Under the pieces are notes generated by a model, which saw only the letters and a program-made list of their open reading frames with translations, had not been told where the DNA came from and did no database searches. A stretch of DNA of 33,477 bases from Chloroflexota bacterium (lineage in GTDB: Bacteria; Chloroflexota; Dehalococcoidia; Lucifugimonadales; Lucifugimonadaceae), in contig PBER01000001.1 in NCBI GenBank assembly GCA_002718455.1, positions 20,095-53,571 on the forward strand, given 5' to 3'. Shown piece after piece: positions 20,951 to 26,292 of this stretch. The position numbers and the translations under genes were made by a program. Numbering within the stretch: the first letter of the stretch is position 1; every line of letters starts with the position of its first letter.

Positions 20951-21703
20951 TTATAAAATTTGACTTAGAAAAAGCTTAGTTCTTTCTTCTTGAGGGTTAT
21001 TAAAAAAGTGATCGGGAGTCCCTTCTTCAACAATGAGTCCCTCATCAAAAAATAAAAAGCGATCAGCAACTTCTCTAGCAAAACCCATTTCATGAGTAAC
21101 GCATATCATTGTCATTCCTGATTGAGCCAATTCAATCATAACATCCAAAACTTCTTTTATCATTTCAGGGTCTAAAGCAGATGTAGGTTCATCAAATAAC
21201 ATTATTTTTGGTTGCATAGCTAAAGCTCTTGCTATAGCTACTCTTTGTTGTTGCCCTCCTGATAATTGAGCTGGATATTTTTCAGCCTGTTCTGGAATCC
21301 CAACTCTTTCCAAGAGACTCATCGCCAATTCTTCTGATTCACTTTTTGATAATTTTTTTACTTTTTGAGGTGCCAAAGTTATATTTCTCAAAACAGAAAG
21401 ATGAGGGAAAAGATTAAATTGTTGAAAAACCATTCCCACTTGACCTCTTATCACATCACGATTTTTGACATCATCATTTAAAGGGATGCCATTAACCGTA
21501 ATTTCACCTGAGTTATGTTCTTCAAGTCCATTTATTGTTCTAATAAAAGTAGACTTCCCCGAACCAGACGGTCCTAAGACCACTACAACTTCTCCTTCAT
21601 ATATATTAGCAGTAATTCCTTTCAAAGCTTGAAAATCACCAAAAGATTTTGTAATACCTTTAGCCTCTACAGAAATTTTCTTTTTAGATACCTTTTTTTT
21701 CAT
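20951..21703 (-). CDS. aapP: Amino-acid ABC transporter ATP-binding protein
   Basis: Walker [10 protein letters not shown], signature [15 protein letters not shown], Walker [17 protein letters not shown]-loop VTHEMGFA. Confidence 0.93.
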
Positions 21704-21728: not shown

Positions 21729-22880
21729 TTAAATATTTAGTTTTTTCTCTATAGTTCTACTTATTTGTGAAAGTACTAGTGAAACTACCCAAAATAACAA
21801 AGCAACCACAGCTAATGATTCTATACTTTTACCAAAAAATGCTTGTTGCTGTTCAGGGATCAGTCTACCAATTCTTAGAAGGTCAGTTATAGCCAAAATA
21901 AATACCAAAGAAGTATCTTTAAAAATAGCTATGAAAGTACTTACTACTGTAGGAATTACAATTCTTATGGCTTGTGGTAAAACTATGAAAATAGTAGTTG
22001 ATATTGAATTGATCCCCAGTGCAAAGGATGCTTCTTCTTGTCCCTTAGGAATAGATTGTAAGCCTCCTCTAATAACCTCAGCAATATAAGCACTTGCAAA
22101 AAGGGACAAAACTATCATTGCTCTAACAACAATGTTTATGTCACTTAGTCCAAATAGGTTAGGTAAAAATTTCGGCAATACAAACCAGGCCAACAGCAAC
22201 CAGGCAACTAAAGGAGCTCCCCTAATCACTTCAATATATACAGTTGATACTAATTTAATTAATTTGTAAGAGCTCGCTCTACCCAGGGCCAATAAAATAC
22301 CTAAAGGGAATCCTGCAAAAATTGCTATGGCTGCTAGAATTAAATTAATCATAAATCCACCCCAAAGAGTCATTTTAGGACCATCCAGAATATTTAATAT
22401 CAAAAAACAAATAGGTAATAATATAATCCAAGAAATCATAATTATTTTTGACACAATATTCTTTAATTTTGAATTCTTAGACCTGTGTCCTAAATAAAAG
22501 AAAACAATGGAAATAAACATAATTAATAACACATATAATACGGTATTTTTTGTAGTAAAAATTAAAAATGGTATAAGAAGTAACAAAATATAAAAAATTG
22601 AACCTTTTATATTAATCTTGAACCAAAAAGAAATGGATATTGTCATCAATATAGACGTTAGAGAAAATATAGTCCAAATCCTCCAAATTTCTTCTTGAGG
22701 CATTAATCCTGTCAGCATTAATTGTCTGTTAACCATGATAAGAGTCCAATCAGAATTTAATATAAAAGATATAACTGTCGATAAAACAAAATAAATAAAT
22801 AACACACCAGTTATAGTCATAGCAACATCCAACTTAGTTCCAAAAAAATTTTCTCTTATCCAATTTAATAAAATCATCAA
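21729..22880 (-). CDS. aapM: General L-amino acid ABC transporter permease, AapM-like
   Basis: GFPLGILLALGRAS, YIEVIRGAPLVAWL, EVIRGGLQSIPKGQEEASFALGI, LPQAIRIVIPT. Confidence 0.92.
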   Translation of the reverse strand: MMILLNWIRENFFGTKLDVAMTITGVLFIYFVLSTVISFILNSDWTLIMVNRQLMLTGLMPQEEIWRIWTIFSLTSILMTISISFWFKINIKGSIFYILLLLIPFLIFTTKNTVLYVLLIMFISIVFFYLGHRSKNSKLKNIVSKIIMISWIILLPICFLILNILDGPKMTLWGGFMINLILAAIAIFAGFPLGILLALGRASSYKLIKLVSTVYIEVIRGAPLVAWLLLAWFVLPKFLPNLFGLSDINIVVRAMIVLSLFASAYIAEVIRGGLQSIPKGQEEASFALGINSISTTIFIVLPQAIRIVIPTVVSTFIAIFKDTSLVFILAITDLLRIGRLIPEQQQAFFGKSIESLAVVALLFWVVSLVLSQISRTIEKKLNI

Positions 22881-24100
22881 GCACCTATCCTAGTCACTCG
22901 ACGGTTAATTATGTTCATTATCAAAGAAATTATCAAACTCAGAGTTAAATAAGTAATTAATATTAATACAAACATTGGTAATGCATGGCCTGCGTTATTC
23001 ATAATCGTACGAGATACCATAAATAAATCAGGATATGCTATGGCAACAGACAAACTAGAATTTTTTGTCAGGTTGAGATACTGATTAGTTAGTGGAGGAA
23101 TAATGGAACGTAGAGCCTGTGGCAAAATAATTAATGTTATCCTTTGATAAGTATTCAACCCTAGAGCCATTGCTGCTTCTGTCTGGCCTATGGGCAAACT
23201 CTGAATACTTCCCCGTACAATTTCTGTAATAAAAGTCCCTGTGTACAAAACTAATGCAAATAAAATTGCGGCAAATTGTGGAGTTAATGCGAATCCTCCA
23301 CTTTGAATATAGGTCCCATGTTGATTTATATTTACTTCTGGAACGTTAAAAGAGAGCTTCATAGATAAAGCAAAAAAAGAAATTATTGCAATGACAACAA
23401 AAGTAAAAAAGGATATTAAATTAGGAGAGAAAAGATCAACATGTTCTTCTTTATATTTGAATAATCTAGATCTAAGAATTAATGAAATGATTAGTCCCAA
23501 CAATAGAATTAAAGACCATAATGAACCATTTTCATTGCTAGAAATAATTGGTAAATAAATTCCTCTATTTGACCAAACAGAAAGGCCTCCAAATGTTAAT
23601 GCTTTAGAAATATGAGGCAATTGTAATAAAAGAAGCTGCCAAAAAATTATTTGAACAAGCAAGGGGGTGTTTCTAATAAACTCTACATAACCTGTTGAGA
23701 TTTTATTGATCAAAAAGTTAGGAGAAAGTCTCGCCAAGCCCATAAAAATACCTAGGATTGTAGCTAAAACTATACCTACTAGACTAACTCTTATAGTATT
23801 GATTACTCCAGCAAAATATCCCATCCATCTACTATCATTACTATTATAATCAATAATGAAAGTATGACTTAGCCCAAATCCAGCTCTACTTGATAAATGC
23901 CCAAATCCTAACTCGAGATTTAATGCTTTATCAACAACATAAAAAAACAATAGTAATAAGAATATTCCAAAAACAAATTGAATAAAAAATCTTCTAAAGT
24001 TTCTGTTTCTAATTAATAAACTTAGTTTCTTCTTTATTGAATCTTCAGATTTAAATTGGGTAAATAAACTAGAGGGCATAGTTACAACATACAGGGTCAC
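22877..24100 (-). CDS. aapQ: General L-amino acid ABC transporter permease, AapQ-like (start more likely about 24079)
   Basis: GFGHLSSRAGFGL, YVEFIRNTPLLVQI, EIVRGSIQSLPIGQTEAAMALGL, LPQALRSIIPPLTNQYLNLTKNSSL. The track start lies inside an intercistronic hairpin. Confidence 0.92.
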   Translation of the reverse strand: MTLYVVTMPSSLFTQFKSEDSIKKKLSLLIRNRNFRRFFIQFVFGIFLLLLFFYVVDKALNLELGFGHLSSRAGFGLSHTFIIDYNSNDSRWMGYFAGVINTIRVSLVGIVLATILGIFMGLARLSPNFLINKISTGYVEFIRNTPLLVQIIFWQLLLLQLPHISKALTFGGLSVWSNRGIYLPIISSNENGSLWSLILLLGLIISLILRSRLFKYKEEHVDLFSPNLISFFTFVVIAIISFFALSMKLSFNVPEVNINQHGTYIQSGGFALTPQFAAILFALVLYTGTFITEIVRGSIQSLPIGQTEAAMALGLNTYQRITLIILPQALRSIIPPLTNQYLNLTKNSSLSVAIAYPDLFMVSRTIMNNAGHALPMFVLILITYLTLSLIISLIMNIINRRVTRIGA

Positions 24101-24142: not shown

Positions 24143-25222
24143 TTATCTAAATGGAGGTGCGTAAATCAAACCACCATCTGTCCATTGAGCATTTAGACTG
24201 CCTTCTCTAGTTAAACCTAGTGGCACTAAATGTCTGTCATACACTTCACCGTAGTTACCTACTTGGTAAAGTACATTTTGCATGAAATCAGCAGAAATTC
24301 CAAATCCGAAATCTTGCACTTCTCCGCCTTCAAAGCCCACACCAAGTAATCTTGCCATACCTGGATCTGCAGGGTTTGCAGCCATAGAAGATACATTAGC
24401 ACTTGTGATGCCACTTTCTTCTGCTTGCATCATACCAAATACTACCCACTGAACAACGTCATACAATTCACTGTCGTTATCTCTTGTCAAAGGACCAAGG
24501 GGTTCTTTAGACAAAGTCTCAGCAAGTACCACTAAAGCTTCAGGACCACCAGAAGCAGCTGGGAAACCAGCTCTCTTTGAAGCTAATCCTGATTTATCAG
24601 TAGTCCAACCTTCACATTGTTTTGCTTCAAATGCAGCCTGTAAAGGATCATTTGTTTCAAAAGTCAGTGGAGTATAAGGAATACCAGAACCTGTAAATCT
24701 ATCATCTAGATTAAGTTCAGTGGTTGTTCCTTGTAAAACACAGACGGTAGCTCCAGACATAGACTCAATTGAATCATATCCACTGTCAGCATATACCATC
24801 ATTCCTTGTCCATCATAGAAAGTAGGTGCTGTAAAATCATTACCTAAATCTCTATCTCTACTCGCAGTCCAAGTAGTGTTTCTAATCAATACGTCAACTT
24901 CACCTGAACCAAGAGCTTCAAATCTTGCAGATGCGGTTAACGGTGTATATTCTACTTTGCTTGCGTCGCCAAGTATAGCAGCAGCTATAGCTTTACAGAA
25001 ATCTATATCAAAACCTTCAAATGCACCATCCGGAGTAACAACTCCAAAACCAGTAAGATTATCATTAACTCCACAATTCAACGTGCCTCGGTCTTTGATT
25101 ACCTCAAGAGTATTAGAAGATGCTTCGGAAGATCCACTAGATGTAGATTCATCAGAACAAGCAGCAAGTACGAATAAAACAGCAAATAGACTTATTATGC
25201 CTATCAACCTAAATTTAAACAT
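24143..25222 (-). CDS. aapJ: General L-amino acid ABC transporter substrate-binding lipoprotein, AapJ-like
   Basis: Start reassigned to the ATG at 25222 (MFKFRLIG...VLAACSDES lipobox) behind AGGAG; body has LEVIKDRGTLNCGVNDNLTGFGVVTPDGAFEGFDIDFCKAIAAA. Confidence 0.92.
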   Translation of the reverse strand: MFKFRLIGIISLFAVLFVLAACSDESTSSGSSEASSNTLEVIKDRGTLNCGVNDNLTGFGVVTPDGAFEGFDIDFCKAIAAAILGDASKVEYTPLTASARFEALGSGEVDVLIRNTTWTASRDRDLGNDFTAPTFYDGQGMMVYADSGYDSIESMSGATVCVLQGTTTELNLDDRFTGSGIPYTPLTFETNDPLQAAFEAKQCEGWTTDKSGLASKRAGFPAASGGPEALVVLAETLSKEPLGPLTRDNDSELYDVVQWVVFGMMQAEESGITSANVSSMAANPADPGMARLLGVGFEGGEVQDFGFGISADFMQNVLYQVGNYGEVYDRHLVPLGLTREGSLNAQWTDGGLIYAPPFR

Positions 25223-25311
25223 ATCTTTCTCCTTTTTATGTTTGTAAAACCACCAGGAGTGACACCAGCTGCCGTAAATTGGTACGGGATTCACCGATAG
25301 GTTCTCGGCTC
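25223..25311 (-). promoter_or_regulatory. GC-rich structured 5' leader of aapJ; riboswitch/cis-regulatory RNA candidate
   Basis: Minus-strand leader gagccgagaacctatcggtgaatcccgtaccaatttacggcagctggtgtcactcctggtggttttacaaacataaaaaggagaaagat-ATG, with short helices CCGA/UCGG and CCGU/ACGG and CUCCU complementary to the SD AGGAG. Confidence 0.5.
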
Positions 25312-25362: not shown

Positions 25363-26292
25363 TTATAAGAAGATTGGTTGTGACCATGCTTTAGTTCCAT
25401 CAGAAGAAATGACAACTAATCTATAATAATTTTTTGCACCATTGATTTGCATATCAATTTGATCATTTTCATCTTCAAAAAAAGTTAATCCATTATTATG
25501 GATGATTTTAATTGTATATTTTGATTTTTTTGAAGAATCCTCTATTTCTATTTTCACATTTATTCTATTCTTAGATAATTCTAATTTTGAAAATTTTACT
25601 CCACTACTTGAGTAAAATTGCCCAGATCTCATAGCATTAATAATATTTTCTTGACTCAATTTGTTTGCATTTACCATCAACCAACCTCTACCTGGGTTAG
25701 ATCGGTTAGCTGAGAATTCTTCATTAAAATGATGTGAATCATCAGTTGCTACACCATAAATCAATTTTCCATGACTTAACACATCATCCCATATCTCTTC
25801 AGTAGACATTGAATAAAGAGATCCATCGTTATTAGCTGACATATGGCCATTAAACACTTCAAAAGCCCACGTATCTCCAGAATGCTTAATATCTTCTGAA
25901 GTTAGCCACCATTGATAATTAGGATGATTGATACTAGACAACCCATTTTGTTCTTTAATTTTATCAACGATGTCATTTATTGCATCTATGTTATTTTCAT
26001 ATGCACCTGGCATTATTACTTTATTAATTCCAATTCCATTAATGTGAAGTGCTGCGGGTTTAGAATCTATTTCTCTTATGGTAATTTCTTCTCCAGGTAT
26101 TAACAAGGGCCATTTCTTAGGGACTTTTTTATCTTCGTCTAAAATAGTCAGATGATTATGATCTGACAAAACCAAAAAATCGTAATTATTTTTTTTGTAC
26201 CATTTAGAAACGTGATCAGGAGAACTGTCACCATCGCTATTCGTAGTGTGAGTGTGGATGTTCCCTTTGAACCAAGGCATAATTCTATCCAA
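25363..26292 (-). CDS. PHP-domain metal-dependent phosphoesterase (CehA/McbA-like)
   Basis: FKGNIHTHTTNSDGDSSPDHVSKWYKKNNYDFLVLSDHNH, SSINHPNY, YGVATDDSHHF. Confidence 0.85.
   Translation of the reverse strand: MDRIMPWFKGNIHTHTTNSDGDSSPDHVSKWYKKNNYDFLVLSDHNHLTILDEDKKVPKKWPLLIPGEEITIREIDSKPAALHINGIGINKVIMPGAYENNIDAINDIVDKIKEQNGLSSINHPNYQWWLTSEDIKHSGDTWAFEVFNGHMSANNDGSLYSMSTEEIWDDVLSHGKLIYGVATDDSHHFNEEFSANRSNPGRGWLMVNANKLSQENIINAMRSGQFYSSSGVKFSKLELSKNRINVKIEIEDSSKKSKYTIKIIHNNGLTFFEDENDQIDMQINGAKNYYRLVVISSDGTKAWSQPIFL

Follow-up and report, generated by a model that had tools for sequence, protein, structure and literature searches.

Eight classes of SAM riboswitches have been described (PMC13314739). 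SAM-I is a four-way junction of about 108 nt, while SAM-II is an H-type pseudoknot. SAM-III, SAM-IV, SAM-V, SAM-VI and SAM/SAH (PMC6914780, PMC7367207) are short leaders that sense SAM, and several of them act on translation. A small aptamer consisting of one hairpin with conserved internal bulges is the Xanthine-I (NMT1) type. Almost no riboswitch literature on the ocean bacteria studied here was found in the literature searched.

The leader RNA described below shares features with each of these systems. It resembles SAM-II (RF00521, SAM_alpha) in size and probably in ligand, and SAM-II is found at the same genes in genus g5 (metY and, in genome G012, thrC2); the new RNA is a long bulged hairpin with other conserved bases. 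With SAM-I (RF00162), which is the class of sister families in the same order and is located there before an mtnA-like gene, it has the sulfur-amino-acid regulon in common. It differs from SAM-III to SAM-VI and SAM/SAH in its conserved core and secondary structure, and from Xanthine-I, despite the similar one-hairpin design, in its genes and in its unmatched sequence. Our leading reading, to which we give a probability of roughly 0.62, is that this RNA represents a new structural class and acts in the methionine regulon as a SAM-sensing translational riboswitch, ligand binding being inferred.

The structured element upstream of aapJ

The window, the whole stretch of 33,477 nucleotides analysed here, encodes an amino-acid ABC transporter operon downstream of the leader. 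The operon and the leader comprise the following features:

20951..21703, minus strand: aapP-like ATPase (PF00005)
21729..22880, minus strand: aapM-like permease (PF00528)
22877..24100, minus strand: aapQ-like permease (PF00528)
24143..25222, minus strand: aapJ, solute-binding protein of the amino-acid ABC transporter (PF00497, E 3e-17; PDB relative 4z9n)
25229..25233, minus strand: Shine-Dalgarno (SD) sequence AGGAG of aapJ, 6 nt 5′ of the ATG, predicted to be sequestered once the hairpin's 5′ strand is made unavailable
25250..25300, minus strand: structured RNA element of 51 nt, candidate aptamer (cmsearch score 62.2 bits, E 1.2e-14)

An ORF of 309 amino acids, located on the minus strand directly upstream of the leader (25363-26292), has no Pfam match. 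An earlier note, made from the sequence alone, had read 25223-25311 as a structured leader, and its coordinates and sequence held. It had also reported about 56% GC in AT-rich surroundings, which was confirmed: GC content is 56.5% for 25250-25311, whereas the flanks have 22% and 10% and the window as a whole 30%, and just 0.07% of the 61-nt windows have a GC content of 54% or more. The complementarity it had seen between CUCCU (minus strand, 25259-25255) and the aapJ SD AGGAG (25233-25229) was likewise confirmed, as was the spacing of 6 nt between SD and ATG. The −10-like TAATAT/TATAAT box that it listed is present, yet no minus-strand promoter reached the consensus threshold in the promoter scan. 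The note could not match the leader to a riboswitch class and left open a new or a divergent known one; no relevant match to Rfam 15 was found at gathering and none even at E<=10. The covariance model of SAM-II (RF00521) was unmatched at gathering and at E<=10, that of SAM-I (RF00162) at E<=10, and the models of the remaining SAM classes and of all other Rfam 15 families were also unmatched by the element.

The folding energy of the single window sequence is no better than that of shuffled sequences (z −0.53), and the case for structure thus rests on comparison and not on energy.

The aapJ reading frame stays open in the upstream direction as far as a GTG within the RNA element (25223-25294); automated annotation could place the start too early.

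Distribution of the RNA family and its gene partners

The leader was first traced by DNA search in genomes of the same genus, g1, and then by collecting aapJ orthologues. A shared motif, UUCGGUGAAUCCCG-RRC-N-GUY-GCUGGUGUCACUCCUGAA, is located 5′ of aapJ in eight g1 genomes, including that of the window. The element is conserved in all eight and aapJ is always the gene behind it; aapJ itself is approximately 80% identical among most of them. The motif is missing from the aapJ orthologues of other genera. A covariance model built from seven aapJ leaders matched copies in other genera of the family, 5′ of a threonine-synthase-like gene. A second model, built from these copies, was run on 250 genomes of the order and identified 55 family members with the RNA; G005, which was matched by other models, brings the family total to 56. 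A third model was run against 400 genomes of the phylum and matched family members only, plus one chance match inside an ORF. Altogether, 11 genera carry the element, out of 12 sampled from a single Chloroflexota family related to SAR202; genus g5 is the exception. Genomes with the element have a single credible copy each, and no credible copy was found outside that family in the genomes sampled from the phylum.

Several matches were rejected as chance. R1, R2 and R3 matches outside the family (L138-L143, L179-L182, L251) lie mostly inside ORFs and none shows the gene context of the family. A second match in G028 (L178) is located, by reading of the ORFs, within a transposase-like coding sequence, and the pattern matches in viral contigs (L272-L279) are two coding sequences. 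In the metY leaders of genus g6 (L134, L177) the full element is followed after about 115 nt by a second copy of the 3′ strand alone (GCTGCTGCTGTCACTCTCGG), without a 5′ strand.

All 53 aligned copies are located 26-318 nt upstream of one of three genes, thrC2 (40 copies), aapJ (8) or metY (5), as the computation shows. The metY-linked copies belong to four g6 genomes and to G114 of genus g12, where the link arose independently; the identity of metY is supported by TIGR01326 above cut-off. The thrC2 gene is threonine-synthase-like and is a distinct paralogue: the genomes checked also encode other thrC-type genes. In the G019 operon (L218:3255-5143) the genes behind it encode a protein with a NIL domain and one of the ThiS/MoaD family; in most other genera checked, thrC2 likewise has a ThiS/MoaD gene, a NIL gene or both as neighbours. 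It has been reported that NIL/ferredoxin proteins have a part in homocysteine synthesis elsewhere (PMC5764234).

Each of the 22 genomes examined encodes metY, thrC2 or both. Among them, seven genera encode thrC2 and lack metY. The reverse, metY without thrC2, holds for g6, for all g1 genomes but one, and for one of the two g5 genomes. These complementary distributions suggest that the two are alternative homocysteine synthases. The thrC2-NIL-ThiS operon is a possible candidate for this role, which is inferred, the function not having been shown. The RNA is thereby associated with genes of the methionine pathway and sulfur-amino-acid metabolism, that is, metY and the operon complementary to it.

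In g5 the aap operon is located near metY in divergent orientation (L288 in G031, L289 in G050), a possible link between Aap and methionine; in G031 a gene for an M20-type peptidase lies between the two.

Fold and covariation

Covariance-model alignments were used; in plain MAFFT alignments, gaps were placed wrongly between sequences of the aapJ and thrC2 types. The consensus fold is a single imperfect hairpin composed of P1, a CUC bulge, P1b, an AU bulge, P1c, a G/GCU internal loop and P2. In the window its parts are:

25294..25300, minus strand: P1 5′ strand CUAUCGG, paired with CUGGUGG (25256-25250); two-sided changes, e.g., G-C to A-U
25291..25293, minus strand: P1b 5′ strand UGA, paired with UCA (25262-25260)
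25289..25290, minus strand: AU bulge, invariant across the alignment
25286..25288, minus strand: P1c 5′ strand CCC, paired with GGUG (25266-25263), the U being bulged
25270..25284, minus strand: P2 hairpin with variable loop; compensated pair variation across genera
25267..25269, minus strand: internal-loop strand GCU, facing a single G at 25285; conserved in the alignment of distinct rows
25257..25259, minus strand: 3′-side CUC bulge, conserved in almost every copy and part of the anti-SD CUCCU (25259-25255)
25250..25256, minus strand: P1 3′ strand CUGGUGG, partner of 25300-25294

The earlier note had proposed two hairpins, which have to be revised to this single bulged one. Its CCGA/UCGG hairpin failed, as it is not conserved and the conserved helix is CUAUCGG/CUGGUGG. 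The CCGU/ACGG hairpin held in part: it can form in the window, and most relatives have the shorter P2 only. The P2 region of the window can alternatively form CCGUA/UACGG by borrowing bases of P1c, as seen in the MFE structure, and P2 has here either an A.C mismatch or a competing hairpin. P1c is C-CC/GGUG in the window and CAGC/GCUG or CAAC/GUUG in relatives. The copy in G003 (L010:1382-1455) carries a 28-nt insertion that lengthens P2 as a new helix and leaves the core unaltered.

Across 41 distinct sequences base pairing is kept in 97.8% of cells, and 10 pairs show two-sided changes. None of 500 shuffles reached the observed values, and slid controls were far lower. The shuffle test is blind to the relatedness of the sequences; for this reason a tree-based null, our own implementation in the manner of R-scape, was run. 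It found 3 of 17 pairs to be significant, one each in P1, P1c and P2. The strongest covarying pair is located in P1c (pair types GC 27, CG 8, AU 6). P1b is near-invariant in these sequences and thus cannot yield evidence from covariation. This alignment, being fitted to the covariance model, leans towards the structure; this concern is limited by the slid controls and by an all-pairs test over the whole alignment, which was passed by the central P1c pair only. We regard the RNA family and its fold as shown by computation. The checks proposed in the earlier note thus gave no Rfam match, a leader conserved across related aapJ genes, and covarying helices.

Two rival explanations can be judged on these data. 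A chance GC-rich island with accidental SD complementarity would agree with the ordinary energy at which the single sequence folds. It is refuted by three results: the RNA is conserved across genera, its helices covary, and 53 of 53 copies are located in the leaders of three gene types. A leader peptide starting at the in-frame GTG at 25294 and acting by attenuation could be proposed, since the GTG ORF crosses the element and is in frame with aapJ in the window. Against this, 5- and 28-nt insertions shift the frame across relatives while the core bases are identical, and variation of the codon type is absent, which makes the leader peptide very unlikely.

Probable ligand, proposed switch and implications

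SAM-I was not found in any genome of the element's family among those searched. It is present in one copy each in 21 genomes of sister families and precedes an mtnA-like gene in nearly all whose downstream gene was read; this gene, which was recognised by eye, we take to be mtnA. SAM-II was found among 120 relatives searched in g5 only, the genus without the new RNA, where several genomes have it upstream of metY and G012 has it immediately 5′ of a thrC2-NIL operon. The same two genes, metY and thrC2, are linked to SAM-II in one genus and to the new RNA in others, a replacement pattern that is shown by computation. Since SAM-II in g5 precedes genes that are preceded elsewhere by the new RNA, SAM is the most likely ligand. 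This identification is inferred from the gene partners and from other riboswitch classes at the same genes, without binding data; methionine, homocysteine or SAH fit almost as well. The idea in the earlier note that an amino acid is sensed is revised accordingly: relatives precede the thrC2 operon and metY, and the ligand is therefore likely to be SAM or a neighbouring metabolite and not a transported amino acid. The case for threonine as ligand is weakened by two facts: the genomes checked have further thrC-type genes, of which thrC2 is a paralogue, and metY is also a target.

The SAM-II loci in g5 are L287 and L286/L282 (G012, G031), before metY and before thrC2. RF00521 is named for alphaproteobacteria, and horizontal transfer of the g5 SAM-II is possible. 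In the SAM-II leader 5′ of metY in G031 (L282/L288) a part (GATTGTCCGTGTACTGCAAAGTATGCGG) is present twice in close succession.

In most genera with thrC2-linked copies, the hairpin's 3′ strand has its complement in a segment a short way downstream, e.g., UCACUCCCGG with CCGGAAGUGA. Segment and position vary by genus and the complementarity mostly beats shuffles; significance is lacking in g10 and, for the complementarity taken alone, in most aapJ leaders. For g12 and g11, reading of sequences and folds indicates that this segment, once freed, can instead fold into a hairpin that encloses the ribosome-binding site, and formation of the element's own hairpin should therefore switch thrC2 OFF. 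The aapJ leaders have anti-SD pairings of their own (UCACUCCU with AGGAGUGA in G003, AUCUCU with GGAGAU in G005), and exclusion of the SD is predicted in several of them; in simulations of SD accessibility the two states were clearly separated in only some leaders. A platform for mutually exclusive pairing is thus shown by computation, on sequence evidence only and with g10 not significant.

We propose that the ligand probably stabilises the hairpin, the 3′ strand of which would then be unavailable for pairing further downstream. The downstream segment thus freed in thrC2 leaders is predicted to fold into a hairpin covering the ribosome-binding site or start codon, and synthesis would be OFF. 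In the aapJ leader the 3′ strand is itself the anti-SD, and hairpin formation is predicted to turn expression ON, opposite to thrC2 and odd for a SAM-repressed importer. Alternatively, the aptamer core might stay folded and P1 might be exchanged for the SD helix, giving OFF; both signs remain at aapJ and the direction is unresolved. The earlier reading of the leader as a translation-controlling RNA switch is supported to this extent, while riboswitch function, ligand binding, the identity of SAM, the signs of control and expression of the RNA are all inferred, without binding or expression data.

A different compound of the pathway could possibly be sensed by the same RNA, be it methionine, homocysteine, SAH or a homoserine derivative. 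Every partner gene is compatible with this, and a directly sensed amino acid would suit the opposite predicted signs, biosynthetic operon OFF and importer ON; against it, the sister genus g5 has SAM-II, a SAM-sensing class, at the same two genes. To our knowledge, there is no natural riboswitch for free methionine or homocysteine. A bolder version, also no more than possible, is a new class that senses one of these free amino acids with opposite signs; if true, the homocysteine-synthase operon would be shut off and the importer switched on in the streamlined relatives. Finally, the hairpin might be the site of a translation-controlling regulatory protein and not a metabolite aptamer. About 50 nt with conserved bulges are compatible with recognition by a protein, for which there are no binding data. 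The retargeting among three genes, the genus-specific platform of alternative pairings and the replacement by SAM-II at the same genes fit a riboswitch better, and we consider the protein site unlikely.

The SAM-sensing translational riboswitch remains our preferred reading and, if true, would add one more structural class to the SAM riboswitches. SAM-I, SAM-II and the new RNA are three structurally different RNAs on one pathway within one order, and two of them occur at the same genes, which makes turnover between riboswitch classes directly testable. In addition, the new RNA draws attention to thrC2-NIL-ThiS, which may be an alternative homocysteine synthase.
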